Source of the DNA: Bacillota bacterium
GTDB lineage: Bacteria > Bacillota > Limnochordia > Limnochordales > DUMU01
Direction: 5' to 3'
NCBI GenBank assembly: GCA_012839805.1
Contig: DUMU01000010.1
Span: 1-64,000, forward strand
DNA: 64,000 nucleotides
The translations under genes and the position numbers were made by a program. The notes under the pieces are model-generated. The model ran no database searches. It was not told the DNA's origin and saw nothing but the letters and a program-made list of their open reading frames with translations. Of this stretch, positions 44,364 to 58,745 are shown piece by piece. Within the stretch, counting starts at the first letter, position 1, and every line of letters starts with the position of its first letter.

Positions 44364-44410
44364 TGGTGGGCCCTGCAGGATTCGAACCTGCGACCAATGG
44401 ATTATGAGTC
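44364..44410 (-). repeat. attL: 47-bp tRNA-Ile2 3' fragment
   Basis: Identical over 47 bp to 58,913-58,959, covering the CCA end, T-arm, variable loop and the anticodon arm up to just past the anticodon loop. Beyond this the sequence differs, so this is a displaced tRNA remnant rather than a gene. Confidence 0.95.
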
Positions 44411-44514
44411 TCATACAGGTGTTCGCCTTGGTTCCCTTGAGTGCCCGGAAATCCCGTCTAGATGCGGTTCCCGGCGTTTGGTAGTATCACCCAGTACCCC
44501 TTTTTCCCGCCAAG

Positions 44515-44547
44515 TGTTGATCAAAGTGTTGATCAAAGTGTTGATCA
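44515..44547 (+). repeat. Three TGTTGATCA repeats near attL (candidate integrase arm sites)
   Basis: TGTTGATCA occurs at 44,515, 44,527 and 44,539, with 12-bp period, 105 bp inside attL. The same word occurs twice near attR, as expected for arm-type sites of a tyrosine integrase. Confidence 0.75.
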
Positions 44548-44635
44548 CTCACCCGCGCCGGAGGGGCGCGCGGGCAGGGCGGGCCGCCGCGGGGACTCCC
44601 AGGAGACCCCGGAGGGAACCGGGTGTGCAATCCAC

Positions 44636-44713
44636 CGTCACCATCGTCACAACCGTCACACCGCCGATGAGAAGCCCGTCTTGCCCGTGACGATCATCGC
44701 CGGGAGTCGTCAC
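44636..44713 (+). repeat. Word array A0 (CGTCAC)
   Basis: CGTCAC starts at 44,636, 44,645 and 44,654 (9-bp period), then inverted GTGACG at 44,687 (33 bp on) and direct CGTCAC at 44,708 (21 bp on). The centre contains AGAAGCC, also seen in arrays E and H. The 829-bp stretch 44,411-45,239 holds this array, A1, the arm sites, a dyad, a promoter and iterons, but no convincing gene over 10 codons. Confidence 0.85.
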
Positions 44714-44746
44714 ACCCATCGGAGGGGAACGATCCCGCGGATTCTG

Positions 44747-44826
44747 CGTCCCTTTCGTCCCTAGCGTCCCTAACCCCGCCTGAGCTGGACTTCTGCAGGG
44801 ACGCTAACGACCGGCCCTGCGTCCCT
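44747..44826 (+). repeat. Word array A1 (CGTCCCT)
   Basis: CGTCCCT starts at 44,747, 44,756 and 44,765 (9-bp period). Inverted AGGGACG follows at 44,797 (32 bp on), then direct CGTCCCT at 44,820 (23 bp on). Confidence 0.88.
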
Positions 44827-45003
44827 AGACGGAGGATCCCTCGTCCCCGGAGCGCCGGCCGAAAGGGTCCGGGCGAACATCCCGCGACCGCGACATGCTT
44901 TTCTGAAAATTGCTCGAAATTTAAATTTTGTGGCGGCGCGGAAGCTGGTTAGCGGAATGTTAGCAGCGCTTTGGATACCGCATCACAAGCTTATTTCACA
45001 GGT

Positions 45004-45028
45004 GTTGCCGAACATGATATTCGGCAAC
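45004..45028. promoter_or_regulatory. Perfect dyad upstream of the replication operon promoter
   Basis: GTTGCCGAA and TTCGGCAAC are exact inverted copies around a 7-base loop, 13 bp upstream of a -35 box. It is a likely operator; there is no T-run. An AT-rich stretch (GAAATTTAAATTTTG, around 44,915) lies shortly before it. Confidence 0.65.
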
Positions 45029-45041
45029 GCGGTGCTCGCGC

Positions 45042-45069
45042 TTGACGGCCCGTTTTTTTGTGGTATAAG
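45042..45069 (+). promoter_or_regulatory. Promoter of the element's replication operon
   Basis: TTGACG and TATAAG are separated by 16 bp. Downstream, GGAGGTGACG precedes a seven-codon reading frame (GTG 45,109 to TAG 45,129, peptide MHTWPE), then the iterons and the HTH gene, giving a leader of about 165 bases. Confidence 0.7.
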
Positions 45070-45142
45070 TGCCGCGAAGGTCAAAAAAACCGCCGGAGGT
45101 GACGATAAGTGCACACTTGGCCCGAATAGCGAGTGTATGGGT

Positions 45143-45181
45143 TTGGTGTACAGCATTGGTGTACGCGATTGTTGTACAGTA
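45143..45181 (+). repeat. Three 13-bp tandem iterons (TTGGTGTAC type)
   Basis: Units start at 45,143, 45,156 and 45,169: TTGGTGTACAGCA, TTGGTGTACGCGA and TTGTTGTACAGTA. A partial copy (TTGGTGTGC) lies at 45,196. They lie in the leader of the HTH gene and could be an operator or replication iterons. Confidence 0.75.
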
Positions 45182-45239
45182 AGCGCGAGTGGCGTTTGGT
45201 GTGCTAGCCAAAGCAACATGTGCCCGGAGGTGCGTAACC

Positions 45240-45458
45240 TTGCGCGACAAGGTGACAAGCTGGGACCAGTTGCCTGTACTTTTAACCGTTTGGCCCGAGA
45301 CCGCGGCTATACTGCGCGTTAACAAAACCCGCGCATATGCGATGGCCCGCGAAGGCGCGATACCGGGGCTAATTAAGCTTGGCCGGAGGCGCTACCGGGT
45401 ATCGCGCGATGTTTTGCGGCGGTGGCTTGAGGGTGGCGGGCAGGAGGCGGTGCGATGA
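45240..45458 (+). CDS. Excisionase-like helix-turn-helix protein
   Basis: A 72-residue protein with a MerR/HTH_17-type winged helix: AAILRVNKTRAYAMAREGAI, then IKLGRRRYRVSRDVLRRWLEG. Such proteins act as excisionases or early regulators in integrative elements. The TTG start at 45,240 is chosen for GGAGGTG seven to eight bases upstream; longer frames run through the iterons. It is the first gene of the operon and overlaps the next by 4 bp (ATGA). Whether it drives excision, replication control or both is not visible. Confidence 0.75.
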   Translation: MRDKVTSWDQLPVLLTVWPETAAILRVNKTRAYAMAREGAIPGLIKLGRRRYRVSRDVLRRWLEGGGQEAVR

Positions 45459-46015
45459 GGGTGCAAAAAAGCCCGGCCGTTGCCGCGACCGGGCCCGAGA
45501 CCACGAAAAAACCGTTCACTGCTAGTGTACCCCAAACCTGTACACCTTGCAATACGCCTGCCGCGCTTGATGTGTTGCTCGCCAGGCTGCAAGCGGTGCG
45601 CCGTACCCGGCGGGGCTGGCTGGCCCGGTGCCCTGGGCACCGCGACCAGCGGCCTTCGCTCTCAATCGCCTTGGCAGATAATGGCAAGGTGCTGCTACAC
45701 TGCTTCGCCGGCTGCCCCCCCGAGGCGGTGCTGGCCGCGGTGGGGCTGACCTGGCGCGACATAAGCCGTCCCGCGACCCGGGAAGAGCGGCTGGAGGCGC
45801 ACTTGCGCCGGCAGCTTGACAAGGCGTGCTTCCGGGCGGCCGCGAGGCTGGCGGAGTGGGCCCGCCTGCTTGACGTTACCACCTACCACCAGCGCTACTA
45901 TCTTGCCAAATATTTACATTGGCCCGATTACCTAGACTGGCTGCGCGAACGCCTGTTTGCCGACGACCCGGAGACCAGGCTTCAAGCCCTCAAGGAGGCG
46001 GAACCATGGCTGTAA
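45455..46015 (+). CDS. Primase-type zinc-finger (CHC2-like) protein
   Basis: A 186-residue protein whose middle resembles the DnaG/phage primase zinc finger: GWLARCPGHRDQRPSLSI then KVLLHCFAGCPPEAVLAAVGL, giving Cys-His...Cys-Cys ligands. No TOPRIM or other catalytic domain follows. The C-terminal half is helical and rich in Arg/Trp/Tyr. It probably provides the DNA-binding part of a split primase working with the ATPase encoded next. It overlaps the next gene by 10 bp. Confidence 0.8.
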   Translation: MRVQKSPAVAATGPETTKKPFTASVPQTCTPCNTPAALDVLLARLQAVRRTRRGWLARCPGHRDQRPSLSIALADNGKVLLHCFAGCPPEAVLAAVGLTWRDISRPATREERLEAHLRRQLDKACFRAAARLAEWARLLDVTTYHQRYYLAKYLHWPDYLDWLRERLFADDPETRLQALKEAEPWL

Positions 46016-47835
46016 CATCACCCACCCCTATCACAAACGCTGTTAAAAACGACCCTGCCCTGGCCCGGCTGCTGGGGTTGCCTCCTGGCGGCGATGAAGG
46101 CTCGGGCAAAAAACCAGGCAAAAAAGCCAAAGCTGAGGTTTTGGTCGAGCTCGCGCTGGAGGCAACCGACCTTTGGCACGACCCGGAGGGTGAGCCGTGG
46201 GCCACGATTTACCCTGACGACGGCCACCGGGAGCATTGGCCGCTCAGGAGCCGCGCCTTTAGGCGCTACTTGGGCCGGCTGTTCCACCAACACACCGGCG
46301 GCGGGGCGCCCGGGAGCAAGACGATCCAAGATGCGCTTGACGTGCTTGAGGGCGTGGCCCTATGGGACGGCCCGGAACATCCCGTCTTCACGCGGGTGGC
46401 CGAGCTGGGCGGCTACCTCTACCTGGACCTAGCCGATGAGAGGTGGCAGGCCGTGGAGATCGGGCCGGACGGGTGGCGGGTCCTGCCCGCGGAGGCCGTA
46501 CCTATACGGTTTCGACGGCCCCGTGGGATGCTTCCCCTACCGGAGCCGACCCGGGGCGAGAGCCTTGGGCTACTGCGGCCCTACCTTAACCTGCCCGACG
46601 AAGAAGCCTGGCTGCTGCTGCGGGGCTGGCTAGTGGGTGCGCTCCACCCCCGCGGGCCGTACCCAGTCCTGGCGGTGATGGGAGAGCAAGGCACCGGAAA
46701 AAGCCTGCTGGTGCGGTTCCTACGCTACCTGCTGGACCCCAACACTGCCCCCCTACGGACAAGCCCGCGGGACGAAGGCGACTTGATTATCGCGGCCCGA
46801 AACGGCTGGGTAATCGCCTTGGACAACCTTTCCGGGCTACCCCAGTGGCTAAGCGACGCGGTCTGCCGGGTAGCGACCGGCGGTGGGCTAGGCAAACGAG
46901 AGCTTTACACGGACCTAGACGAGGTACTGGTGGACGTCCGGCGGCCCGTGATTCTCAACGGCATTGACGACCTCACTACCCGCGACGACCTACGGGACCG
47001 GTCCATCGCGCTCACTCTGCCCACGCTCCCGGAAGACGAGCGGCGAGAGGAAAGCGAGCTTTGGGCAGCGTTTGAGCAGGACCGTCCCGCGATCCTCGGT
47101 GCGCTGCTGGATGCGGTAGCCGCGGCCATGCGCCACCGGGAGGAAACGAAGCTGGACCGGCTGCCTCGGATGGCCGACTTTGCGAGGTGGGCGGCCGCGG
47201 CGGGGCGGGCAGCCGGCTGGACGCCGGAGGAGTTCATGGCTGCGTATACGGGCAACCGCCAGGAGGCGGCGGAGGCCGGCGTGGAGGCGTCTCCCATCGG
47301 CCACGCAATCCTGCGGCTTGTGGGAGCCAGGGGCACCTGGGAAGGAACCGCGACCGACCTGCTTAACGCTTTACGTCAGGTGGTGGGCGAAGACGACCGG
47401 ACGCTGCCCAAAGCGCCGGAGACCTTGTCTAACCACGTGCGGCGGCTGGCGCCAGCGCTACGGGTGGCCGGCATTGACGTACAAAGCTACCGCGAGCCGG
47501 GTGGCACCACCGGCAAGCGGAGGAGAATGCTCCGACTTACCCACATGGGGAACAAAGCTGCAAATCCCGCGTCCCTGCCGTCCCTACCGTCCCTAAACGC
47601 CTCTGAGCAGGCGTTTTGCAGGGACGGCGACAGGGACGGTGACTCTCGGGCCGCGTCCCTAGACCGGCAGTTCACCGTCCCTAGGGACGCAGCAGGGACG
47701 AAGCAGGGACGCGGCAGGGACGCGGAGGCCGACCTCGCAAACCCGCTTCAGAACGGCATTAGGGACGCAGGGACGCGTAGGGACGCGGATTTGCACATCT
47801 GTTCCCCTTGCGACGATGAAGCCCCATGGGATTGA
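46006..47835 (+). CDS. Phage/plasmid-type replication ATPase (SF3-like helicase)
   Basis: A 609-residue protein. The N-terminal 210 residues resemble primase-helicase linker regions. The ATPase domain has Walker A MGEQGTGKSLLVRFL (about residue 226), Walker B GWVIALDNLS (about 267) and VILNGIDDL (about 316), as in replicative helicases of satellites and plasmids. AAGGAGGCGG precedes ATG 46,006. The last 85 residues are encoded by word array B (repeated SLP and RDG units), so they are probably unstructured. With the upstream zinc-finger protein it forms a primase-helicase pair, which implies autonomous replication of the excised element. Confidence 0.82.
   Translation: MAVTSPTPITNAVKNDPALARLLGLPPGGDEGSGKKPGKKAKAEVLVELALEATDLWHDPEGEPWATIYPDDGHREHWPLRSRAFRRYLGRLFHQHTGGGAPGSKTIQDALDVLEGVALWDGPEHPVFTRVAELGGYLYLDLADERWQAVEIGPDGWRVLPAEAVPIRFRRPRGMLPLPEPTRGESLGLLRPYLNLPDEEAWLLLRGWLVGALHPRGPYPVLAVMGEQGTGKSLLVRFLRYLLDPNTAPLRTSPRDEGDLIIAARNGWVIALDNLSGLPQWLSDAVCRVATGGGLGKRELYTDLDEVLVDVRRPVILNGIDDLTTRDDLRDRSIALTLPTLPEDERREESELWAAFEQDRPAILGALLDAVAAAMRHREETKLDRLPRMADFARWAAAAGRAAGWTPEEFMAAYTGNRQEAAEAGVEASPIGHAILRLVGARGTWEGTATDLLNALRQVVGEDDRTLPKAPETLSNHVRRLAPALRVAGIDVQSYREPGGTTGKRRRMLRLTHMGNKAANPASLPSLPSLNASEQAFCRDGDRDGDSRAASLDRQFTVPRDAAGTKQGRGRDAEADLANPLQNGIRDAGTRRDADLHICSPCDDEAPWD
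47570..47785 (+). repeat. Word array B (CGTCCCT), inside the replication ATPase gene
   Basis: CGTCCCT at 47,570, 47,579 and 47,588; inverted AGGGACG at 47,620 and 47,632; direct at 47,654 and 47,676. A run of AGGGACG follows at 47,683, 47,694, 47,705, 47,716, 47,761, 47,769 and 47,779. The centre holds the dyad AAACGCC/GGCGTTT. Its first 90 bp are repeated, inverted, in array C. Confidence 0.9.
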
Positions 47836-47849
47836 GGAGGCGACCGGAC

Positions 47850-48047
47850 GTGCAAACGCTGATAGCTGTTCGCTGCCTATCTTGCGGGCGGCTCTTGACG
47901 GAAACCCTTCCTCGAGCCCGGGTCTACTGCCCGGCCTGCGGCCGCTGGTGTGAAGCTGAAGACCCCGGGAACCGCCCCCGCCTGCCCGCGGGGAAGCAAC
48001 AGGCCGCAAAACACCGCAAAACGGCGAAGAATGGCGAGGTGAGCTGA
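47850..48047 (+). CDS. Small zinc-ribbon protein (Com-like)
   Basis: A 65-residue protein with two Cys pairs: VRCLSCGRLLTE and VYCPACGRWCEAE, a zinc ribbon as in the Mu Com and other small phage regulators. The basic tail (AAKHRKTAKNGE) suggests nucleic-acid binding. GTG 47,850 has AGGAGG nine bases upstream; an in-frame ATG at 47,826 overlaps the replication gene. The role is unknown. Confidence 0.7.
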   Translation: MQTLIAVRCLSCGRLLTETLPRARVYCPACGRWCEAEDPGNRPRLPAGKQQAAKHRKTAKNGEVS

Positions 48048-48048
48048 C

Positions 48049-48291
48049 ATGGCGAAGCACTACCGTGGGAGGGAGGAGACGCCAAAGACGGCGGAGACCC
48101 CGCGGCTGGCCGTCCGCTACTACCCCAAGGCGGGCAAGCTCCAGCTCCTCAAGCGCTGGAAGGACAGGGAGGGGAACTACCAGGTGGGGCCCGGCGTGAC
48201 CCTTGACGCCGAGGACCTTCAGCTCGCGGCTGAGGCCCTCGAGCTGATTGAGGAGTTTGTCGGGAGTCTAGGGAGAGGAGGCCGGCCATGA
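48049..48291 (+). CDS. Hypothetical element protein
   Basis: An 80-residue protein (MAKHYRGREET...). A basic N-terminus and a predicted beta-hairpin (LAVRYYPKAGKLQLLKRW) are followed by a C-terminal helix (DLQLAAEALELIEEFVG). It starts one base after the previous stop and overlaps the next gene by 4 bp, so it belongs to the operon. No family is recognised. Confidence 0.65.
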   Translation: MAKHYRGREETPKTAETPRLAVRYYPKAGKLQLLKRWKDREGNYQVGPGVTLDAEDLQLAAEALELIEEFVGSLGRGGRP

Positions 48292-48785
48292 ACCTGACGC
48301 TGACAAGGCTATCCGAGAGCGAGGCGGCCCGCAAGCTCGGGCGGCACCGGCAGCTAGAGCCCGAAGATTGCCTGTTCCTCTTTGCCCCCGCGACGGGCCG
48401 GGGCATCACCGTTGTGTTTGGAGTCGAGGAAGCGGCCGACCTCGCGGACGGCCTGGACTACCGCTACCTATTCGAGGCGGCCACCCCGTCCCGACTGACC
48501 GGTGGACGACCGGCTCTTTGCTTCACTCTCACCACCCAAAGCCCCCGGCGATCGGTGCGCTTGCTCTTCCCGCCCGACGCGGTTCCCTTGCTGTTGCAGT
48601 CTGACTTCCTGCTCCTCCTCGCGGCCGACGCGGCCACCTGCGAGGCCCTGACAAGTGTCTCGGACCTGGTCTCCCTGTCACGCCGCGGCTTTATCAGCGT
48701 TGACCTGCGGGAGGACGAGGACCTACGGATACTCGGCGCGGCGGTGGCAGCGGCCGACAGCCTGACAAGGGGGTTTCAGGGATGA
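48288..48785 (+). CDS. Hypothetical element protein
   Basis: A 165-residue alpha/beta protein with no recognised motif. Hydrophobic strands (LFLFAPATGRGITVVFGV, FLLLLAADAAT) and an acidic C-terminal region (VDLREDEDLRIL) suggest a soluble globular fold. It is coupled at both ends by 4-bp overlaps (ATGA), good evidence that it is translated. The function is unknown. Confidence 0.65.
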   Translation: MNLTLTRLSESEAARKLGRHRQLEPEDCLFLFAPATGRGITVVFGVEEAADLADGLDYRYLFEAATPSRLTGGRPALCFTLTTQSPRRSVRLLFPPDAVPLLLQSDFLLLLAADAATCEALTSVSDLVSLSRRGFISVDLREDEDLRILGAAVAAADSLTRGFQG

Positions 48786-48961
48786 GCCCTTTGCCCAATA
48801 TCTGCCTGTCTTGCGGCATCCACATGGTTGACGCCCCGCGGTGCAACCGGTGGACGCGGGCGAAACCCGCCCCCGAGAAGCGGCCGACCCGGCCCCCTTG
48901 GCCGGCGGCTAAACTTCAGGCGCGGAGGCTGGCCCTCCTCGCCGGGAACGAAAGGGGATAG
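48782..48961 (+). CDS. Very small Cys-containing protein
   Basis: A 59-residue protein beginning MSPLPNICLSCGIHMVD. The CxxC plus a later Cys (APRCNRW) could form a partial zinc knuckle; the rest is basic and Pro-rich. Its ATG overlaps the stop of the preceding gene (ATGA), and it ends 4 bp before the RemA-like gene. It is too short for routine detection, but the coupling supports it. Confidence 0.55.
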   Translation: MSPLPNICLSCGIHMVDAPRCNRWTRAKPAPEKRPTRPPWPAAKLQARRLALLAGNERG

Positions 48962-48965
48962 CTCC

Positions 48966-49253
48966 ATGCCAACGCTTCACCTGGGCTTCGGTACCTGGAC
49001 GAGGGCCGAACACGTGTTGCTTGTGGTCCCGGTCTCCTCGAGCGTGCGGGTTAAACGACTGCTCAATACCCTGAGCGAAGCCGGCCGCGTGATCGACTTG
49101 ACCCGTGGTCGCAAGCGACGCTCCCTCGTACTCTTGAGCGGCGAATGGCTGATCATCTCTGCGGTGCGCGCGAAGAGCCTGAGACGGCGGCTCGCCGCGG
49201 CGGAGGGCAATACCGGAGGGGGTATGCTCCATGAAGAGCAAGACCAGCCTTAA
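48966..49253 (+). CDS. RemA-like DNA-binding regulator (DUF370 family)
   Basis: A 95-residue protein matching the RemA/DUF370 pattern along its length: LHLGFGTWTRAEHVLLVVPVSS, then RVKRLLNTLSEAGRVIDLT, GRKRRSLVLLSGEWLIISAV and KSLRRRLAAAE. RemA of Bacillus is an oligomeric DNA-binding activator of biofilm genes that recognises repeated sites; host copies usually sit beside gmk. This copy is on a mobile element and has a longer tail. It overlaps an ImmA-like gene by 23 bp, recalling regulator/antirepressor pairs such as ImmR-ImmA. Its DNA target may be the element's repeat arrays, but that is only a hypothesis. Confidence 0.8.
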   Translation: MPTLHLGFGTWTRAEHVLLVVPVSSSVRVKRLLNTLSEAGRVIDLTRGRKRRSLVLLSGEWLIISAVRAKSLRRRLAAAEGNTGGGMLHEEQDQP

Positions 49254-49833
49254 CGCTTTGCTCCGCAGGGCAACGGACGAAGGGATCAGCGTGGTGTTCA
49301 CCCGTGAACCCCTGCCGGAGCCCGGCACCTTCAGCGTTGACGAGGGCATCCCGTTGATCCTCCTCCAGGCCGACCTGGTGGACGACCCCCGGTCCCTCCG
49401 TCTCGCCCTCGCCCACGCGCTCGGGCATCACTTCTTCTGGAAGGACCTTGCAAAGCCCAGTGTTTCCTGCTGGGGGGCCGAGCTATGGGCAAAAGACCTG
49501 CTCACCGGTCCTATGCTCCTCCGCCGGCGGCTCCGGCGCTGGATCCTTCGCCAGGCGCTCGAACAAGGAGTCGAACCACCTGTCGAAGGGGAGCTCGCGG
49601 CAACCCTTGCCTGGGAGTGGGCCCTGCGCACCGGCTGGCGCTACGGCGTTCCACCCGAAAAGATCCTGGATTGGGTGGTCTTGGAGAATCGGTGCGCGGA
49701 TATGATCAGCCGGCAACTCGGGCGAATGTCGCGACAGAAGCGCCGACTCGCGGCCCGGATCGGTTACCTCGAGCGCTCTAAGCACGGAGCCAGCCAACCC
49801 TGGGACTGGGTTTGGAAACCCGGCGCTGTATAA
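49231..49833 (+). CDS. ImmA/IrrE-like (DUF955) protein with altered metalloprotease motif
   Basis: A 200-residue protein. ALAHALGHHFFW (about residue 61) lies where ImmA/IrrE peptidases have HExGH; here the catalytic Glu is Ala. A second zinc-ligand region may be EWALRTGWRYGVPPE with the helix following. The family cleaves phage or ICE repressors upon a signal. Loss of the Glu suggests a non-catalytic binder or a diverged active site. It is coupled to the RemA-like gene. The assignment is moderate, since similarity is limited to the motif and overall layout. Confidence 0.6.
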   Translation: MKSKTSLNALLRRATDEGISVVFTREPLPEPGTFSVDEGIPLILLQADLVDDPRSLRLALAHALGHHFFWKDLAKPSVSCWGAELWAKDLLTGPMLLRRRLRRWILRQALEQGVEPPVEGELAATLAWEWALRTGWRYGVPPEKILDWVVLENRCADMISRQLGRMSRQKRRLAARIGYLERSKHGASQPWDWVWKPGAV

Positions 49834-49948
49834 ACCCTTCTGTACCGGGCTTCTAGGCTCGCGGGTATGATGGGCTGGGGAGAGGGTTTAGAAAGCGACA
49901 TGCGTATAAACCGCTCTACAAGCGGCCTGCGGGCTCTCCGGCTCGAAG

Positions 49949-49968
49949 ATACCCCCTGGGGTATTTTC
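49949..49968 (+). terminator. Possible terminator after the early operon
   Basis: ATACCC/GGGTAT stem with a short loop followed by TTTTC, 116 bp after the ImmA-like stop. The 311-bp gap 49,834-50,144 otherwise holds two TGATCAACA repeats and no gene. Confidence 0.45.
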
Positions 49969-50039
49969 GGGGGGACGACCAATGGATTCTCAATCCTATG
50001 GCACTCCGCAAGGCCGCTTCTAGAGCCGGTTCTGGGCAA

Positions 50040-50060
50040 TGATCAACAGTTTGATCAACA
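50040..50060 (-). repeat. Two inverted-orientation copies of TGTTGATCA in the element centre
   Basis: TGATCAACA starts at 50,040 and 50,052 (12-bp period), the reverse complement of the end repeats, 85 bp upstream of the terminase small-subunit gene. Confidence 0.7.
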
Positions 50061-50144
50061 GTTACCTAGGGCGACCGCCACCGTCTCAGGCGGTGCCCGA
50101 CCCAGCACGGAACCCGCCTCATTCGTACAAGGGCAGGTGGTCTT

Positions 50145-50744
50145 ATGGACGAAGTGAACGAGAAGCAGCCCCTTTCGGAGCGAAAACGGCAAGCCATTCT
50201 GGTGAACCTGGCAAAGGCACGGGAGGCCAAGACGAAACCTGGAAAGCCAGGGGGACCTCCACCGGTACTAGGGCTGAAACAGGTGGCGGCGACCTCGCCG
50301 GCGGTGAAGGAGACGGCGGCCGAACTAGCCGCGCTCCTGCAAAGCGACGGGTTAACCCCGGTGCGGCCGGTTGACCGAGTGGCGCTCGAGCAGGCTTCCA
50401 TCGCCATTGAAAAGGTGCGTACCCTGGATCGGTATCTGAGGAAACATGGCATGGTACGGCCGAAGAAAGGCGAGGTAAGACCGGCGGCCGAACTGCTGCT
50501 CAAGTACCTGCGGGAGGCCCGGGAGTGGTTGGGAGAGCTAGGAGCCACCCCGAAGGCGCGGGCGGCCCTAGGGCTGGACGTGGCCCGGCAGGTGGATGTG
50601 GCCGTCCGCCTGGCAGAACTGCGGGCCGAGCGACCGAAGCCGATAGATGGCAAGCTGGTGGCCGACCCGGGGCCGGAGACCGCTCCTGGACCGCAGGACC
50701 GTGACACCTCACCCGGTGAAGAGCCGGGGCCGACCGATCCCTGA
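50145..50744 (+). CDS. Phage terminase small subunit (P27-like)
   Basis: A 199-residue DNA-recognition subunit of a packaging motor. The centre fits P27-family small terminases: LDRYLRKHGMV, RPAAELLLKYLREAREWLGELGATPKARAALGLD (in parts). The N-terminal 50 residues are basic and likely bind DNA; the C-terminal 35 are Pro/Asp/Glu-rich. It would pick the packaging site and pass DNA to the large subunit encoded 2 kb downstream. Such genes are usually adjacent to the large subunit; here a regulatory stretch and two other genes intervene. Confidence 0.72.
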   Translation: MDEVNEKQPLSERKRQAILVNLAKAREAKTKPGKPGGPPPVLGLKQVAATSPAVKETAAELAALLQSDGLTPVRPVDRVALEQASIAIEKVRTLDRYLRKHGMVRPKKGEVRPAAELLLKYLREAREWLGELGATPKARAALGLDVARQVDVAVRLAELRAERPKPIDGKLVADPGPETAPGPQDRDTSPGEEPGPTDP

Positions 50745-50909
50745 GCTGACCGCGGGCGCCGGAGACCGGGCGTGAGCGACACGACCCGCCCGGGCGGGGC
50801 TCCGGCGGCCGGTACGTCTTCCACCACCCCGGAGCAGGCCGCCCGCGCGGGGCTTAACTCCTCCCCACCCCGCCGCGCGATGCTAAACCGGCCCGTTAGC
50901 AAAAGCCCG

Positions 50910-50947
50910 TCTAGCTGGGGAAACGACAACGCTTCTAGCTGGGGAAA
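50910..50947 (+). repeat. TCTAGCTGGGGAAA direct repeat
   Basis: A 14-bp word at 50,910 and 50,934 (24-bp period); its exact reverse complement is at 56,938-56,951 in the centre of array G. A degenerate copy (TCTAAGTGGGGAAC) is near 51,091. The 843-bp stretch 50,745-51,587 contains this, a short possible gene, two promoters and a stem. Confidence 0.65.
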
Positions 50948-51063
50948 TCCTATCCGGCGTTTTTAGAGGCCGTAGGACGGGCGGGAATGTCGCCGGACGT
51001 ACCTCTAAACCCCTTTGCCCTCTTCTGACCGGCCCTAGAGAGGCCAGCAGGCGGCCACCGTTC

Positions 51064-51207
51064 ATGCAAGGGCAGCGCTCGAGCAACGCTCTAAGTGGGG
51101 AACTGAGCAGAGAAAGCTTGCAGAAGCTCAAGCTGGCGCGGGCGTGGCTATCCAGGCGCTTGCAGGAGGTCCTTTCGGGAACCACTCACCTTACCCCGCG
51201 GTATTAA
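51064..51207 (+). CDS. Possible small helical protein
   Basis: A 47-codon frame whose product (MQGQRSSNALSG...) contains an amphipathic helix (RESLQKLKLARAWLSRRLQ). AGGCGG lies ten bases upstream. There is no homology or coupling to support it, so it is a weak candidate in an otherwise non-coding stretch. Confidence 0.3.
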   Translation: MQGQRSSNALSGELSRESLQKLKLARAWLSRRLQEVLSGTTHLTPRY

Positions 51208-51256
51208 CATGAAAACTGATCATCTTGGGCCGACTTCACAGCGATCGCGGGGACCC

Positions 51257-51285
51257 TTGACAAGCTTTCTTCGACATGGTAGCAT
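51257..51285 (+). promoter_or_regulatory. Strong promoter in the terS-xkdF gap
   Basis: TTGACA and TAGCAT are separated by 17 bp. No gene with a ribosome site follows for 300 bp, so it may drive a regulatory RNA or the late operon leader. Confidence 0.65.
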
Positions 51286-51291
51286 GTATGA

Positions 51292-51400
51292 TGGTTAAGT
51301 GTGAGTTCTTGGTCCGGTCCCAGAGACTCACCTCCGTCCTGCAGCCCTAGCGCTGGGGCCGCCGTTATTGCGGCGGCTCCACCGCCTTTCAAGCGCCGGC
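51292..51400 (+). ncRNA. Candidate structured leader or small RNA
   Basis: Downstream of the 51,257 promoter a stem of ten pairs (GGGGCCGCCG, 51,355-51,364, with CGGCGGCTCC, 51,371-51,380; one G-U) closes a six-base loop. There is no clear T-run, so the 3' end is unknown. The call rests only on promoter plus stem plus lack of coding signal. Confidence 0.3.
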
Positions 51401-51541
51401 AAGGCCGCCTCAGAAATTACAAGCGCTGGAAACCGGCGAGGACGCTCGCTCGGGTTAGTTCACACACAACCGCCTCTTTTGTTTCCCGTATCTCTTCACC
51501 ACTCACGCTGACTCTCAAGAACTCAAGTAACATTAGCGTTT

Positions 51542-51569
51542 TTGACCGCCTTGTCGCCTGTAGTATACT
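51542..51569 (+). promoter_or_regulatory. Promoter of the packaging operon
   Basis: TTGACC and TATACT are separated by 16 bp, ending 18 bp before the XkdF-like start codon, with AGGAGGTG between. Confidence 0.75.
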
Positions 51570-51587
51570 GTTCCAGGAGGTGAAGCG

Positions 51588-51995
51588 ATGGAGACTGTTT
51601 TGAAAGTGGATCCTCAGCTCCGCATCGTCTACGGATGGGTAGCGTTGACCCGCTTTAACGGTCAGCCTTACGTTGATCTCCAAGGCGATGTGGTAGAAGC
51701 AGAATCTCTTCAGAAAGCCTTGCGCGATTTTATGCTCAAGGGTGCTAACGCGGGGGTTATGCACGCACGCGACGAGAGCGGCAGGCCCGTAGTAGTAGGC
51801 AAGGTGGTCGAAGCTCTCTTGCTTACCGATGAAAAGCTAGAAGTGATGTTTCCGGGCAATGTTGACCTGCCGGACTCACCGAGAGGCTTATTCGTGGGCA
51901 TTCACATTCAGGATGACCGCGTATGGGAGAAGATAAAGCGCGGCGAGCTACGTGGCTTTTCGCTGGCTGGCAAGGGCGTTAGACGGGAGGTATAG
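51588..51995 (+). CDS. XkdF-like phage prohead serine protease
   Basis: A 135-residue protein resembling XkdF and other prohead proteases: IVYGWVALTRFNGQPYVDLQGDVVE, read in parts, LRDFMLKGANAGVMHARDE with the candidate catalytic His, VVEALLLTDEKLEV, and FVGIHIQDDRVWEKIKRGELRGFSLAGKG with the candidate Ser. In phages it matures the procapsid by cleaving scaffold and capsid proteins. Here no capsid gene is present, so its substrate would come from elsewhere. It starts the packaging operon behind a strong promoter and AGGAGGTG, 2 bp from the scaffold-like gene. Confidence 0.7.
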   Translation: METVLKVDPQLRIVYGWVALTRFNGQPYVDLQGDVVEAESLQKALRDFMLKGANAGVMHARDESGRPVVVGKVVEALLLTDEKLEVMFPGNVDLPDSPRGLFVGIHIQDDRVWEKIKRGELRGFSLAGKGVRREV

Positions 51996-51997
51996 CC

Positions 51998-52708
51998 ATG
52001 GCCAAACTCCTCAAGATCGAAGAGCTGGAAGAGATAAGCTTGGTGGACCGGCCAGCGCAGGAACCGGCCTTGATACGGCTGGCGAAGCGGGCTGAGACGA
52101 AGGAGGCCGAAAGCCGGGCGGCGGCCGAGCTCGCGAAGAAGCTGGCCGAGCTGGAGACCGAACTGGGATCGCTGGACCTGGCCGTCCTGAAGATGGAGGC
52201 GGCCGTCGAAGCGGCGCGGGCGGCCCGGCGGCCGGAGAGCGTATGGGAGGAGATTCAATCGCTCGCCAGGGCGATCAAGCGGCCCGACGAGACCCGCGAG
52301 CAAGCCATCGAACGAGTCCTCGAGGAAAACCCGGAACTCGAGAAGGCGTACCGGACGGCGCAAAACCCGCCGACGGAGGCCCGGAAGCGCTACGCGGAAG
52401 CCCTGGCCCTGGCCGAGATCGCGCCGGTGGTCGAGGCCCTGAAGGCGGAGGACATGGACGACCGCGAAGCGCTGATGAAAGCCGTCGAGATCCTCCCCTG
52501 GTGGCCCGATCGGGCCCGGGCGCTCGAGGCCGCGGCGCTGGAGGACGTGGACAAGGCGGCGCGGGGGCACGAGACCCGGCTGGCGCTCACCCGGGCGCTG
52601 GTGGCCGCGGCCAAGGGCCGGGTGAACAAGGCGGCCGGCATAACCCTCGAGGCCGCGCTGGCCGAGGAGTTTAGCCGGCCGAGTGCCCGAGCGACCCTGG
52701 GAGGGTGA
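51998..52708 (+). CDS. Scaffold-like coiled-coil protein
   Basis: A 236-residue, Ala/Glu/Arg-rich helical protein. Its start (LLKIEELEEISLVDRPAQEPALI) resembles the C-terminal segment that follows the protease domain in XkdF proteins, which often ends in VSLVDRPA. A coiled coil spans residues 25-75. The pair therefore looks like a protease-scaffold protein split into two genes. It could remodel or fill a procapsid supplied by a helper. The identification is inferential. Confidence 0.55.
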   Translation: MAKLLKIEELEEISLVDRPAQEPALIRLAKRAETKEAESRAAAELAKKLAELETELGSLDLAVLKMEAAVEAARAARRPESVWEEIQSLARAIKRPDETREQAIERVLEENPELEKAYRTAQNPPTEARKRYAEALALAEIAPVVEALKAEDMDDREALMKAVEILPWWPDRARALEAAALEDVDKAARGHETRLALTRALVAAAKGRVNKAAGITLEAALAEEFSRPSARATLGG

Positions 52709-52714
52709 ACGGGC

Positions 52715-54160
52715 GTGACCAAGCTGGAGGCGACCCTGCGGCGCTGGCGCGAGGACCGGATGGCATTCATTGGTGATCTTGTACTCGACGATGGCCGAAA
52801 GCTAGAAAAAGCGCTCACCCCGTGGCAGCGGGAGATGCTGGCCGGTGTCCACCGTCACCCCTATAGCTACCTGGAGCTGCCACGCGGCAGCGGCAAGACC
52901 ACCCTGGTGGCCGCGGAGGCCGTAGCCGAACTCTTCCTGGGCAAGCCGAACGCAAGGCTTTATGTTGCCGCGAGCGACCGGGAGCAAGCCGGGCTCCTCC
53001 ATGAAGCGGCGGCCGGGTTTATCATGCGTTCACCCTTCCTCGCGGCGTCAAGCGAGATAGAGCGCTGGCGGATCAAGGTGCCCGGGACGGGTAGCCGGCT
53101 CGAGGTATTGTCTGCGGACGGCGCGTCCGCCCTGGGGCTCGCACCGGATCTCATTATGTGCGACGAGCTGGCCGTATGGCCCGATCGGTCGCTCTGGGAC
53201 GCGCTCTGGACCGCGGCGGGCAAGCGGCGCGGCTGCCGGGTGGTCATTCTCTCCACCCCGGGCGGTGACCTGTCTCACTTCAGCAAGGCGATCCGTGACC
53301 GGGCAACCGAAGGCCCCCCATGGTTTTACTTCACCCGCAACGAACCTCCCGAGTGGATGAGCAGGGAATACCTGGAGGAGCAGAGGCGGACGCTCCCGCC
53401 GGAGGTGTTTGCCCGGTTCTTCGAGGCCCGGTGGGTGCCCGGGGGCGGCCAGGTGATCACCGAGGAGGACCTCAAGCATTTCTTTGACCCGGAGCTGAGG
53501 CCGGCACCCCGGGGCAAGGGACTGGGCTACGTGGTGGGCGTGGACCTGGGGCTGATGCGTGACCGAACGGCGATCGTAGTCTGCCACCGGGAAAGAGACG
53601 GGAGCGTAATCGTGGACCTTATGGACGGGTACGAGGCCGTCGAGGATTCCCGGGTACTCTTCGCCGACGTGAGCCAGGCCCTCCTGCGCATCTACCGCGA
53701 CTTCGCGAACCCGGTCTTTGTGGTTGATGTATGGCAGGCGTTCAAGCTGGTCGAGGACCTGCGGAAGGAGGGCTTGCGCTTCGAGGAGGCGGTTTTCTCC
53801 CCTAGCTACCGCCACAAGATCGACAGTACGCTGCTCCGGTTGCTCAAGGACCGGCAGATACGGTGCTACTCGGGAACGCGAGAGGCGCACGCGCTTCGCC
53901 TGGAGATGCTGGCCCTCCAGGTGGAGGTGAAATCGGGCGGGTGGCGCATGAACCACGGATACGGAGGCCACGACGACTTCTGGACCGCGCTGGCGATGGC
54001 GGCGACCCGGGCCCTCGAGACCACCATGGTACAAATGGACGAACGGGCATTCGAGAAACTCATGACCCTGAATGATTCCTTTTGGCACGCGAGCGTGGCC
54101 AGGGAGATAGGGGCCGAGGACATCTGGGAACGAAACACCTATCGCGAGTGGGGGGATTAA
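52715..54160 (+). CDS. Phage terminase large subunit
   Basis: A 481-residue packaging ATPase/nuclease. ATPase: Walker A ELPRGSGKTTLVA (about residue 54), Walker B PDLIMCDELAVW (about 146) and coupling motif VVILSTPGG (about 180). RNase H-like nuclease: VVGVDLGLMRDRTAIVV (about 272), VVDVWQAFKLVEDLR (about 337) and GGHDDFWTALAMA (about 420) supply the metal-binding Asp residues. All key residues are present, so the motor looks intact. GTG start with GGAGGGTG upstream. Retention of a complete motor with no capsid genes is the main oddity. Confidence 0.9.
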   Translation: MTKLEATLRRWREDRMAFIGDLVLDDGRKLEKALTPWQREMLAGVHRHPYSYLELPRGSGKTTLVAAEAVAELFLGKPNARLYVAASDREQAGLLHEAAAGFIMRSPFLAASSEIERWRIKVPGTGSRLEVLSADGASALGLAPDLIMCDELAVWPDRSLWDALWTAAGKRRGCRVVILSTPGGDLSHFSKAIRDRATEGPPWFYFTRNEPPEWMSREYLEEQRRTLPPEVFARFFEARWVPGGGQVITEEDLKHFFDPELRPAPRGKGLGYVVGVDLGLMRDRTAIVVCHRERDGSVIVDLMDGYEAVEDSRVLFADVSQALLRIYRDFANPVFVVDVWQAFKLVEDLRKEGLRFEEAVFSPSYRHKIDSTLLRLLKDRQIRCYSGTREAHALRLEMLALQVEVKSGGWRMNHGYGGHDDFWTALAMAATRALETTMVQMDERAFEKLMTLNDSFWHASVAREIGAEDIWERNTYREWGD

Positions 54161-54163
54161 CCC

Positions 54164-54781
54164 ATGACGGTCGAAGAGGCACAAGCGGCGATCGAGCAAT
54201 GGCGGCAAGTAGTCTCTACCCTCGAGGAGCAGCTAAAGGCCGCGGAAAAGGCGCTGGAGGAGGCGACTCAGGCGCGTACCCAGGCGATGCTAGAGCAGGC
54301 CGCGGGCAAGGGCTCAGCCAAGAGCGTGGCCGAGGCGATCAAGGCGCAGGCGACCGCTCGGAACGAGGTAGAGTCGATCAAGCTGGCGCTACCCGAGGCA
54401 CGCCAGAAGCTCGCGGCGGCCGAAGCGGAGCTGGTAAAGGCTAAGCAGGCGGAGGCTCGAAAGCGCTTCAACGTGCTGGCGGCCGAGCGGCAAAGGATCG
54501 CCAAGGAGATAGACCGCATGCTCGCCGACCTCGCCGAGGCCATGATCCAGTATTACCGGGTGGACGAGGAGCAAGGAGTGGCGGCCCGGCAGGGCGGTCT
54601 ACCCTGGAGCCGGGACGCCAAGGAGCTGCTCACCGACGCCGTAGCCTGGTATCTGGGCCCGTACGGGAGCCGGCCGGACATACCCAACAGCGGACTTGTC
54701 GAGCTGGCCGCCGGGCCCTCGCGCCGGGGCGGTGTGCTCGCCAATGACCCGTATGCCAGGCCCGAGCGCGCCGACGGGTGA
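54164..54781 (+). CDS. Hypothetical coiled-coil protein downstream of terminase
   Basis: A 205-residue protein. Residues 1-130 form a long Ala/Glu/Gln/Lys coiled coil (VSTLEEQLKAAEKALEEA, AEAELVKAKQAEARKRFNVL). The C-terminal 75 residues are globular or extended (LPWSRDAKELLTDAVAWYLGP). It starts 3 bp after the terminase stop, in the same operon. It could be a second scaffold, decoration or adaptor protein, but nothing specific is recognised. Confidence 0.6.
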   Translation: MTVEEAQAAIEQWRQVVSTLEEQLKAAEKALEEATQARTQAMLEQAAGKGSAKSVAEAIKAQATARNEVESIKLALPEARQKLAAAEAELVKAKQAEARKRFNVLAAERQRIAKEIDRMLADLAEAMIQYYRVDEEQGVAARQGGLPWSRDAKELLTDAVAWYLGPYGSRPDIPNSGLVELAAGPSRRGGVLANDPYARPERADG

Positions 54782-54787
54782 GGCGCC

Positions 54788-55726
54788 GTGGACGAGCTAA
54801 TCCCGATAAGGCGCTATATCGCGCAGGCCAAGACCCTGGCCGGCAGGTCCGACGATCTGGTTGAACGATGGATCATGCTCCCGGTCAAGGTGGCCCGGGA
54901 GTTCATCAGGCGGGGCGTACCCTTCGAAGAGCTGGTGGCCGAAGGGAACCTGGCGCTGGTCCGGGCCGCCCGGGACTATCCGTCGAGCAAAGCGAAGGCG
55001 AACGGCGTACCCTTCGGGGCTTACGCGAGCCGGGCCATAAGGTTGCACCTCGAGGACCGCATCCGGCGGGAAGAACCGTTCAAGGTGCCACCCAAGGTGT
55101 GGCGCAAGCTCCAAGCCTACCAGGAGACGGCGGGTGACATGTACCGGGAGACCGGCGAGGTGGACGAACAAGCTCTGGCCGACCAACTCGGGCTGAGCCG
55201 CGAGGAGGTAGCGCTCCTCCGTCACCTGGCGCGCACGCGAAAGCGGGTCTACTCCCTGGAAGAAGAGCTGAACGACGAAGACCGGGACCCAGACACCCGG
55301 GCGGACGTGATCCCGACCGAGACCACGGCCGAGGACGAGGCCCTCGCGCAGATTGAGCAAGAGGAGAAGCGGGAGCGGGTAAAGGCCCTGCTCGCCAAGC
55401 TCCCGCCGGGGCTGCGGCGGGCGCTATCCCTGAACTGCGGCTATCCTCTGGACGAAACCTGGCGGTTTGAAGATCTCCTCCGGTTGGCCCCGGCATTGAA
55501 CACCATGGCTGTAAGGGCAAGGCGCGTGATCAGGCAGCAGGAGGCTGGTGCGGGTGTTCTATCCGGCGGCGGGAACCTGGGATCAGACACAAAGGGTCGA
55601 ATGGGCTCTGTTCATGGCACCTACGCTCCTCTTGGAATTACGTCGCAGGCGCGAAAGCGCATCGTTGCGGACATCTGGGATCGCCTTGCTCGCCACGCGC
55701 GGCCGGCGGTGGACGCCGCGGGATAG
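54788..55726 (+). CDS. Sigma-70-family factor of the element
   Basis: A 312-residue protein. Region 2 is recognisable: RRGVPFEELVAEGNLALVRAARDYP and FGAYASRAIRLHLEDRIRREEPF (in parts). Region 3 is VDEQALADQLGLSREEVALLRHL. Region 4 is incomplete: LAKLPPGLRRALSLNCGY starts it, but a clear recognition helix is missing. The last 75 residues are Gly/Ala/Arg-rich and overlap another frame that encodes a helical HTH-like protein. A frameshift or a split sigma factor is possible. It probably directs RNA polymerase to element or late promoters. Confidence 0.72.
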   Translation: MDELIPIRRYIAQAKTLAGRSDDLVERWIMLPVKVAREFIRRGVPFEELVAEGNLALVRAARDYPSSKAKANGVPFGAYASRAIRLHLEDRIRREEPFKVPPKVWRKLQAYQETAGDMYRETGEVDEQALADQLGLSREEVALLRHLARTRKRVYSLEEELNDEDRDPDTRADVIPTETTAEDEALAQIEQEEKRERVKALLAKLPPGLRRALSLNCGYPLDETWRFEDLLRLAPALNTMAVRARRVIRQQEAGAGVLSGGGNLGSDTKGRMGSVHGTYAPLGITSQARKRIVADIWDRLARHARPAVDAAG

Positions 55727-55967
55727 TAGCGTCGAAGAGCAATGGGTTTGCCGAAACGAAAAGGATATAGACCTCGCGGTGAATATCCTGCGCTCCCTGC
55801 GCAACATGGAGCTTGATTGGCTTGAGAGCATGGTTTTGGTTCATTGCTACTGGAACGGCCGCGACCTCGAGGAGCTGGCGGGCATAGCCGACCGGTCGCT
55901 GGGCGAGATTAACGCGGCCAAGCGAAGCCTCTTGGACAAAGCCCGGGCCCGGCTGTCCTGGCTGTAA
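55548..55967 (+). CDS. HTH/sigma-region-4-like protein overlapping the sigma gene
   Basis: Up to 139 residues. The C-terminal 65 resemble ArpU/region-4-type regulators: ILRSLRNMELDWLESMVLVHCYWNGRDLEELAGIADRSLGEINAAK (in parts) with a helix-turn-helix near the end. GTG 55,548 or 55,554 follows AGGAGG, but overlaps the sigma gene by about 175 bp in another frame. Either the proteins overlap, or the sigma frame has shifted and this is its true region 4. An ATG at 55,614 would give a shorter protein. Array C begins 13 bp after the stop. Confidence 0.55.
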   Translation: MRVFYPAAGTWDQTQRVEWALFMAPTLLLELRRRRESASLRTSGIALLATRGRRWTPRDSSVEEQWVCRNEKDIDLAVNILRSLRNMELDWLESMVLVHCYWNGRDLEELAGIADRSLGEINAAKRSLLDKARARLSWL

Positions 55968-55979
55968 CAGGACAGCGAC

Positions 55980-56080
55980 AGGGACGATGGATTACCCGTC
56001 CAGGGACGCGGCCCGAGAGTCACCGTCCCTGCAAAACGCCTGCTCAGAGGCGTTTAGGGACGGTAGGGACGGCAGGGACG
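55980..56080 (-). repeat. Word array C (CGTCCCT), inverted copy of array B
   Basis: On the minus strand CGTCCCT at 56,080, 56,071 and 56,062 (9-bp period), inverted copy at 56,024-56,030 (32 bp), direct at 56,002-56,008 and 55,980-55,986 (22 bp each). It matches 47,566-47,660 in reverse almost exactly, lacking one 12-bp unit. The 1,290-bp stretch 55,968-57,257 holds five further repeat sets and one predicted RNA but no convincing gene. Confidence 0.9.
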
Positions 56081-56108
56081 CGGGATCCGCCTTCTTGTTC
56101 CCCACCTC

Positions 56109-56137
56109 TTGCGCGCGGCGGCAAGCGAGTGTATTAT
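56109..56137 (+). promoter_or_regulatory. Promoter of the three-hairpin RNA
   Basis: TTGCGC and TATTAT are separated by 17 bp, ending 10 bp before the first hairpin repeat. Confidence 0.6.
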
Positions 56138-56143
56138 CACGAT

Positions 56144-56373
56144 AGGCGCCTGCGGCGAGGCTTTGTATCGCCGAGGAGAGGGAAGCGTCTCGCTCCACAT
56201 ATGTTTAACGTGCCTGCGGAGAGGCTTTGTATCTCCGACGAGGAGCCGCCGCGCGGCGAGGACTACGAGCCAGCACGTTTAACATGCCTGCGGAGAGGCT
56301 TTCTATCTCCGACATGCCGCGAGAGTCGACCAAGCGGCATTGGGCCGCCCCATGCGGGCGGCCCTTCGCTTTG
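56144..56373 (+). ncRNA. Predicted small RNA with three 27-bp hairpin repeats
   Basis: Three 27-bp repeats (56,148-56,174; 56,212-56,238; 56,286-56,312) share GCCTGCGG and the loop GGCTTTGTA or GGCTTTCTA. Each forms a stem: CGGCGA with TCGCCG in the first, CGGAGA with TCTCCG in the other two, a compensatory pair change. A promoter lies just upstream and a 9-bp terminator stem follows. Copies 2 and 3 share a longer unit with GTTTAAC in front. No ribosome site or open frame of interest is present. It is predicted only, and the function is unknown. Confidence 0.6.
56342..56373 (+). terminator. Terminator of the three-hairpin RNA
   Basis: GGGCCGCCC and GGGCGGCCC are perfect inverted copies around the loop CATGC, followed by TTCGCTTTG. 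Strong stem, weak T-run. Confidence 0.6.
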
Positions 56374-56417
56374 CCCCGGGGGCAGAGCTTTGGCGTCCAT
56401 TCCCGCGGGTACTTTTG

Positions 56418-56500
56418 GCGTTAATAGCGTTAATGGCGTAGCTGCGTAGCTTAGTTCCCGGCTAGGGGCTTATGTCGTTAATGTCGTTTTTGTCGTATTT
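56418..56500 (+). repeat. Word array D (CGTTAAT-type)
   Basis: GCGTTAAT at 56,418 and 56,427 and GCGTAGCT at 56,436 (9-bp period). GTCGTTAAT, GTCGTTTTT and GTCGTATTT follow at 56,474, 56,483 and 56,492 (9-bp period). There is no inverted copy, so it is a divergent member. Confidence 0.6.
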
Positions 56501-56551
56501 CATAGGCCGCAACCTTTCGCGCGTGGGCATTTCTGCCCCCCCTGCCGACCG

Positions 56552-56653
56552 GGTGACGGATCAGGTGACGATAGGTGACGATCCCCGCGCGATCATCGTC
56601 ACCCCCCAAACTGGCTTCTGGTGGGCGCGGTGACGATGGTGACGCAGGTGACG
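56552..56653 (-). repeat. Word array E (CGTCACC)
   Basis: Plus-strand GGTGACG at 56,629, 56,638 and 56,647 (9-bp period), inverted CGTCACC at 56,597 (32 bp), direct copies at 56,574, 56,564 and 56,552. The centre has CCAGAAGCC on the minus strand. Same word as A0 in opposite orientation. Confidence 0.85.
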
Positions 56654-56700
56654 ATCCTTTGCAGGTGTGTTCCCCTCTGTCTTCTGCTGAGCTTTTGCCA

Positions 56701-56800
56701 CCGACGGTCAACCGGCGATCACCGACGATACGCGGCGGGCGATCGTCGGTAGCCGGAGCCCGTTGCGATGCGCTTTCCGACGATGCCGACGATACCGACG
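56701..56800 (-). repeat. Word array F (CGTCGG)
   Basis: Plus-strand CCGACG at 56,777, 56,786 and 56,795 (9-bp period), inverted CGTCGG at 56,744 (33 bp), direct copies at 56,722 (22 bp) and 56,701 (21 bp). Confidence 0.85.
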
Positions 56801-56872
56801 GTATTTCGCGGCTATTTTCCCGACACCTTCTGGCTACTCCCGGGGCATGCGCGGATGGTTCACCGCCATCCT

Positions 56873-56984
56873 GCGGACGGTACGGATCGTCCGCCAGCCC
56901 GGGCGATCGTCCGCCATCGTCCGCCATGTCGCAAGTATTTCCCCAGCTAGAGACGCGTGGCGGACGAAGCGGACGAAGCGGACG
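56873..56984 (-). repeat. Word array G (CGTCCGC)
   Basis: Plus-strand GCGGACG at 56,960, 56,969 and 56,978 (9-bp period), inverted CGTCCGC at 56,918, 56,908 and 56,888, direct GCGGACG at 56,873. The centre is about 10 bp longer than in the other arrays and contains the complement of TCTAGCTGGGGAAA. Confidence 0.82.
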
Positions 56985-57041
56985 ATCTTCTGCTGACCTT
57001 TTCTTCTCCGTGTTGATCCGGGTCAACCTGTCAGAAGCCTG

Positions 57042-57141
57042 CGTCAGCCATTCCGTGGTTGCTGACGATCGGCTGACGATGGCCCGGAAGGATCGTCAGC
57101 CTGAAAAGCGGCTTCTGGAGCGGCTTCTGACGATGCTGACG
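57042..57141 (-). repeat. Word array H (CGTCAGC)
   Basis: Plus-strand CTGACG at 57,127 and 57,136 (9-bp period), inverted CGTCAGC at 57,094 (33 bp from 57,127), direct GCTGACG at 57,072 (22 bp) and 57,061, and another inverted CGTCAGC at 57,042. The centre contains CCAGAAGCC on the minus strand, as in E. Confidence 0.82.
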
Positions 57142-57208
57142 ATGCGTTGCGCTCCTGTTCCCCTTCCACTCTTGTTATCTCCTACGTCTTCGGCACCATG
57201 GCACCATG

Positions 57209-57237
57209 TTGACAGGAAGACCGCGCTATGGTAGGAT
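57209..57237 (+). promoter_or_regulatory. Promoter of the RHH-integrase operon
   Basis: TTGACA and TAGGAT are separated by 17 bp, followed by GGAGGTGAGG and the RHH start codon 20 bp later. Confidence 0.8.
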
Positions 57238-57257
57238 CATCTTGGAGGTGAGGCGAC

Positions 57258-57491
57258 ATGGCCGAGGGCACTCCAAGGCTGGGGGTGCGGGTCCCGGAAG
57301 CTCTCCTCCGGGCGGTGAAGAGCCAGGCGGTAGAGCGGGGGATCAGCTTGCAGGACCTGATTGTCGGATTCTTGCGGGAATGGGTCGAGCCCGACCGCCT
57401 GGAGCGCATGGAGCGGGCGTTGCAGAAGGAAAAGGAAACCGTACAGGCTAAGGCGGCACGGGCAAGGGCTGGAAGGCAGGAGACCCGGTAA
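57258..57491 (+). CDS. Ribbon-helix-helix-type DNA-binding protein
   Basis: A 77-residue protein with an Arc/CopG-like pattern: a short strand (PRLGVRVPEALLRAV), then helices (KSQAVERGISLQDLIVGFLREWV), followed by a charged tail (ERMERALQKEKETVQAKAAR). RHH dimers bind short palindromes and often control integrase or partition genes. It has its own strong promoter and ribosome site and lies 31 bp upstream of the integrase, so it probably regulates integration or acts in excision. Confidence 0.75.
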   Translation: MAEGTPRLGVRVPEALLRAVKSQAVERGISLQDLIVGFLREWVEPDRLERMERALQKEKETVQAKAARARAGRQETR

Positions 57492-57522
57492 GGCTACTCA
57501 GGGCAAGGCGGAGGTGGCAGGG

Positions 57523-58725: not shown

Positions 58726-58745
58726 CTGCCGAAACCCGCCCTGGA

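Follow-up and report, generated by a model that had tools for sequence, protein, structure and literature searches.

Repeat arrays of one layout and several words in an integrated Bacillota element are probable origin iterons of an SF3/D5-type initiator helicase family

We analysed a window of 64,000 nucleotides from a Bacillota bacterium of the class Limnochordia (contig DUMU01000010.1, positions 1 to 64,000, forward strand) and, within it, a 14.5-kb element that is integrated in a tRNA-Met gene and carries eight repeat arrays, A0, A1, B, C, E, F, G and H. The arrays share one architecture, and each is built from a short word that is the same throughout the array. Judging from the sequences and from where similar arrays are found in other genomes, we consider it quite probable that they serve as half-sites, made up of iterons, in replication origins that are recognised by superfamily 3 (SF3)/D5-type initiator helicases of the family to which the product of the element's gene at 46006-47835 belongs. 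By analogy with known origins, array B, with the word CGTCCCT, is probably the element's own origin, and for A1 and C the best reading seems to be auxiliary half-sites of the same word.

Results

The arrays were located with a scan that leaves the word open and accepts any 6-mer repeated at 9 bp and accompanied by an inverted copy. Over the full 64 kb, clusters were found at the eight arrays only, all confined to the element and none in the flanking 49.4 kb; 200 first-order Markov sequences of equal length gave 0.16 clusters on average and two at most, against the eight of the element. Composition-matched sequence thus does not reproduce the arrays, and a chance origin was rejected. In A0, A1, B, C, E and F, the first direct word and the inverted word are spaced by exactly 51 bp, and in G by 61 bp; H has a degenerate first copy, which leaves two intact copies before the inverted one. 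Given the free-word clusters, far above the Markov expectation, and the 51-bp spacing in six arrays, the strict shared layout described in the original prediction is real, as is the longer centre it noted for G. Distal direct copies, where there are several, follow at a period of 11-12 bp. Pooled over the eight arrays, the two letters after a CGTC core are those of the array's word at 57 of 61 cores, which bears out the claim that the words agree within each array; the motif AGAAGCC, said to be common to A0, E and H, is likewise visible in the sequence.

On the left side of the element and on the forward strand, half-site A0 (44636-44713) has the word CGTCAC, with three direct copies at 9 bp, the inverted copy at +51 and a direct copy at +72, and half-site A1 (44747-44848) has the element's own word CGTCCCT. 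Array B, with its mirror half B2 (47570-47790, forward strand), had been described as one more array of the common kind; it does share the layout, but it is a mirrored double half-site, not a single one, with 14 copies of CGTCCC(T), and lies in the 3' end of the helicase gene. The half-sites of the right side are on the reverse strand: C (55979-56080) has the own word CGTCCCT and is a close inverted paralogue of B, E (56551-56653) has CGTCACC with all seven copies perfect, F (56699-56800) has CGTCGG, G (56872-56984) has CGTCCGC with a centre 10 bp longer and three inverted copies, and H (57044-57150), the one with the degenerate first copy, has CGTCAGC. Region D (56417-56500, reverse strand) contains words at a 9-bp period without an inverted copy and is atypical or decayed. 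The left-side arrays face right and the right-side arrays face left. Decayed coding repeats of one family were rejected as a source, since B is within coding sequence but E to H lie between recognised genes. A CRISPR array, with repeats of at least 20 nt and unique spacers, was also rejected, the words being 6-7 bp long and the gaps 2-3 bp.

An inverted and a direct copy of a word are bound to pair, and the original prediction had offered structured RNA or single-stranded DNA, with the words as covarying stems, as a possible common cause. B, C and G fold well (z-scores of -4.3, -3.1 and -3.7), but A0 (+1.3) and H (-1.1) do not follow them, the stems at the centres are barely longer than those of shuffled sequences (4.03 vs 3.55), and a stem would have no need of the further direct copies spaced at 9 and 11 bp. 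With scores ranging from +1.3 to -4.3, no Rfam match to the arrays, and arrays placed on either strand and in coding sequence, covarying stems are unsupported as a shared cause; a structured RNA family was rejected, and we regard the whole explanation as very improbable.

In the window's own genome, pattern and BLAST searches found no other such arrays, and among 398 sampled Bacillota genomes, more than two self-consistent arrays of the layout were present in the window's element only. A pattern search of phages and related genomes had been proposed together with the original prediction. In IMG/VR, a CGTC-only pattern gave mostly chance matches until a filter for self-consistency was added; the filtered scan revealed three further elements (L036, L081 and L133, the L numbers being our designations of loci), and in all three a homologue of the window helicase adjoins the array. 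The reverse search was made with the helicase protein alone against IMG/VR, a set with one genome per species, and Bacillota genomes, and at each homologue the 480 bp around and after the match end were tested for an array, with the word left free. Arrays were present at 88 of 129 helicase loci, compared with 115 of 3507 control windows (3.3%); these loci belong to Alpha- and Gammaproteobacteria, Chloroflexota, Planctomycetota, Acidobacteriota, Actinomycetota, Bacillota and others. In many phyla, then, helicase homologues have such arrays at the 3' end of their gene, which supports the early suggestion of binding arrays of different specificity that serve replication.

Packaging had been named as another possible role, and the element does encode small and large terminase subunits that might recognise such arrays. 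The arrays, however, follow the helicase gene across phyla, and no close relatives of the terminases were found, the Bacillota matches having at most 37% identity and IMG/VR yielding none; because the arrays travel with the helicase, packaging is unlikely as their primary role, and we give it next to no weight. Mimicry of several helpers, another role named there, is a possibility.

The word at the helicase loci is usually CGTC followed by two or three letters (CG, AC, CC, AG, AT, CA, GA or TA), and some diverged members have other words (TGTCAG, TTGCGCC, CGTTCC, TACACC, GTCCTG); CGTC is absent from some members. It varies between elements and is constant within one, and most elements have a single word; extra arrays with another word are rare at other loci, the candidates being L236, L245 and L256. 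The mirrored pair of half-sites seen in window B recurs in L148, L149 and L151, and the order of the site is a triplet of words at 9 bp, a spacer of about 30 bp, the inverted word, words at 11-12 bp, and then the reverse; in these four cases, the site is encoded by the last ~90 codons of the helicase. Across 29 half-sites, the 20 bp outside the 9-bp triplet have an A/T excess of 0.157 (~16 percentage points) over the locus. A second, distal half-site with the same word lies several kb off in L253, L259, L260, L266, L278 and L159.

Some further loci deserve mention in their own right. In L149 and L150, the helicase frame runs through the array and ends in similar peptides (FPLWSNP and FPLFSNP), which suggests a kept C-terminal tail. 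In a diverged branch, represented by L302 (1575-1815) and L279 (4682-4882), the arrays are placed upstream, ~1.7 kb before the helicase end, and their words include TTGTGAAGG. L157 contains, at 4880-5110 and 2130-2330, repeats of 9-bp period (CTTTGTGATC / TTTGCGATC) with inverted copies; CTTTGTGATC was rejected as a second word of this locus, being a different, unrelated-looking intergenic repeat. Divergent pairs of CGTCCCT arrays are found in L532 (11430-11900), L537 (3540-4000) and L538 (7800-8240), and because these adjoin P4/D5-type primase-helicases that are unmatched by the family model, the CGTC iteron type is not restricted to the family of the window's helicase.

The helicase itself has no Pfam family of its own, and the D5_N and Primase_Cterm models are also unmatched. 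Its AlphaFold model (predicted local distance difference test, pLDDT, 88) shows an SF3-like core between an N-terminal domain and a C-terminal domain of winged-helix-like form, and the closest solved folds in a Foldseek search are AsfvPrimPol, NrS-1 CTR and the primase-helicase 7ola of the Staphylococcus aureus pathogenicity island (SaPI) SaPI5, with template modelling (TM) scores of 0.53-0.61 (by target). As modelled, the protein is an SF3-like AAA+ fold. A sequence search of the Protein Data Bank (PDB) with the helicase gave no match to SaPI Rep or to Cch or Cch2 of the staphylococcal cassette chromosome mec (SCCmec), and by sequence homology it is outside the SaPI and SCCmec families proper.

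All five words of the window also serve as origin words near family helicases elsewhere: L157 and L587 have CGTCACC; L576 has CGTCGG in one origin half; L150 and many Alphaproteobacteria have CGTCCGC; L586, L594 and L260 have CGTCCC; and L081, L192 and L249 have CGTCAGC. Within the window, same-word arrays sit at opposite ends of the element with their words identical and their spacers 58-59% alike (45/78 non-word positions for A0-E, z 6.3; 46/78 for A1-C, z 7.2), and different-word pairs are weakly alike (E-F, E-G and E-H, z 2.9-4.2). On these alignments, the pattern fits conservation of the word within a class combined with a common origin of the layout. As the sequences present it, the oddity is the set of five words in a genome where one helicase of the family was found, with the half-sites A0/E, F, G and H intact.

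For these non-cognate arrays, we propose what is the most tentative step of our model. The words of A0/E, F, G and H would be those of other family initiators, and a foreign initiator from a co-resident element or a helper phage would be either recruited, the arrays then acting as extra origins, or titrated, the arrays being decoys; we see this as possible, with some reserve. Slightly less probable is the wider notion of a polyglot origin, in which a satellite-like element keeps its own origin plus intact half-sites of four other initiator classes, and any of several foreign initiators might start the element's replication or be soaked up. The search of the window's own genome for a second helicase of the family found none, and no D5_N protein either, which counts against the involvement of foreign initiators, and the readers proposed for A0 and E-H are therefore hypothetical.

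A different history competes with the foreign-initiator step, though not with the reading of the arrays as origin iterons. The element may resemble an onion of remnants, its replication module having been replaced repeatedly by recombination inside older terminal half-sites, and the extra arrays would then be idle; A1 and C would belong to the present module, A0 and E to the previous one, and F, G and H, having lost their left partners, to older ones. The same-word pairs are indeed nested, A0 [A1 ... C] E, with the own-word arrays innermost, the outermost H and G deviate most from the layout, and the five words are found with one initiator gene where a single word is usual in other elements. 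Decaying sequence, however, would soon lose its words, and those of E, F, G and H are intact (7/7, 6/6, 7/8 and 6/6 CGTC cores); nor have the words of A0 and E changed while their spacers came to differ at 42% of sites, although this divergence could predate the capture. We give such a history slightly less weight than the foreign-initiator step.

Several observations weigh against the explanation that we propose. Under the strict test, 41 of the 129 loci have no detectable array, and more distant P4-type primases also have CGTC-word arrays next to them. Mutual information across the family identified no single helicase column that predicts word letters 5 or 6, and near-identical recognition helices occur with different words. 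In L576 (950-1260), one origin has the half-sites CGTCTG and CGTCGG; one helicase may therefore tolerate more than one word, and the origin is perhaps caught in transition. These last three points, together with CGTC as the usual constant part, favour one loose reader: the element's helicase would read mainly CGTC and tolerate the rest, the element would have eight loading sites, and slippage, template switching or gene conversion would keep the words alike within a half-site. Against a loose reader, A0 and E have the same word 12 kb apart with diverged spacers, some family members have no CGTC, and between close relatives that differ in word, divergence is greatest in the C-terminal domain, a result that rests mainly on L192 and is suggestive only. 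On balance, we find a specific reading of the word letters by the helicase likely, and a loose reader less probable, with about the same weight as the onion of remnants. L173 and L193, in the same metagenome-assembled genome, have helicases 85% identical and do not share an origin word, which would be expected of words that keep incompatible replicons apart. Co-resident elements differ in their words in four genomes; the word is the same in L189 and L197 of one genome, and a rule that co-resident elements always differ failed on this pair.

The left attachment core (44364-44410) consists of 47 bp that are, by alignment, identical to the tRNA-Met 3' end at 58913-58959, the right core being within the tRNA-Met gene (58913-58988, reverse strand). 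All protein genes recognised between them are on the forward strand. A primase-like gene (45455-46015) has a weak match to the CHC2 zinc ribbon (PF01807, E 0.0016, below the curated cut-off) and a match to the DNA primase phrog_6088 (E 3.5e-16); it is followed by the SF3/D5-type initiator helicase with its C-terminal winged helix (46006-47835; identified by AlphaFold model, Foldseek and homologues), the last ~90 codons of which are encoded by array B. Further on are the terminase small subunit (50145-50744; PF05119, E 2.2e-6; phrog_83), an XkdF-like phage protease (51588-51995; PF14550, E 4.8e-15), the terminase large subunit (52715-54160; phrog_9, E 2.3e-43; PF03354), a sigma-70-like factor (54788-55726; PF04542; phrog_351), a ribbon-helix-helix protein (57258-57491) and a tyrosine integrase open reading frame (57361-58725; PF00589, E 3.1e-31), the true start of which is probably further in. 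With integrase, helicase, TerS, TerL and protease, and no match to capsid or tail proteins among the element proteins scanned, the element (44364-58912) could, from its gene content, be a satellite like the phage-inducible chromosomal islands (PICIs) or a decayed prophage. The cumulative GC skew of the element has its minimum at 44848 and does not mark array B as origin. Other repeats are GTTGATCA at 44512-44550, at 50026-50063 (mid-element, inverted) and at 58824-58846, possibly integrase arm sites, and a 37-bp unit in three copies (GTTTAACGTGCCTGCGGAGAGGCTTTGTATCTCCGAC and variants) at 56139-56313, between arrays C and E.

Discussion

In the mechanism that we propose, a half-site would consist, in order, of an A/T-rich flank, where melting takes place, a triplet of words at 9 bp, ~30 bp of spacer, the inverted word and words at 11-12 bp; a full origin would be a pair of such half-sites in facing orientation. 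The helicase, probably via its C-terminal winged helix, would bind the words in its own gene (array B), melt the flank and load as hexamers; A1 and C would be auxiliary, like the distal arrays of other elements and the crr site of satellite phage P4.

Should the reading of the arrays as origin iterons be right, they represent an origin design that is widespread in phages and integrated elements and is recognised by a helicase family without a Pfam or clear PHROG model of its own. As the word shifts between close relatives while the layout stays, the specificity of initiators for iterons, and the incompatibility that may follow from it, become directly testable. The window's element is an outlier and would be a test case for satellites that borrow or titrate the initiators of other elements.

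The original prediction held that no known iteron form matches the arrays; this was too strong, the iterons of SaPI, P4 and SCCmec being comparable. Our literature searches found no published description of the array layout. SCCmec Cch2 and SaPI Rep bind origin iterons downstream of their own genes via a C-terminal domain (PMC7581432). SaPI Rep/ori and SCCmec Cch2/ori resemble the window in combining an SF3-type initiator helicase of an integrated element with short iterons at or downstream of its gene; the predicted fold of the window helicase is similar to SaPI5 7ola, and the DNA-binding domain of the SaPI and Cch2 proteins is C-terminal. Since SaPI Rep and Cch2 bind iterons and the predicted fold is similar, an origin appears to be the best reading of array B. 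The window differs from both systems in its iterons inside the 3' coding end, in the fixed layout of 9-bp triplet, inverted word and 11-bp words, and in its several words.

In satellite phage P4, the alpha protein is a helicase-primase initiator and two distant iteron sites, ori and crr, are needed in cis, a pair that the distal half-sites of the family's elements recall; the P4 iterons are of another sequence, however, with one word in P4 and five in the window. The iterons of lambda O are inside the initiator gene and differ between relatives, and O is not a helicase; the window likewise has iterons inside the initiator gene, but the iterons and the fold are unrelated. Iteron plasmids have repeated words about one helical turn apart, an A/T-rich flank and an incompatibility based on the word. 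Multireplicon plasmids usually have one initiator per iteron set, whereas the window's element has one initiator for five.

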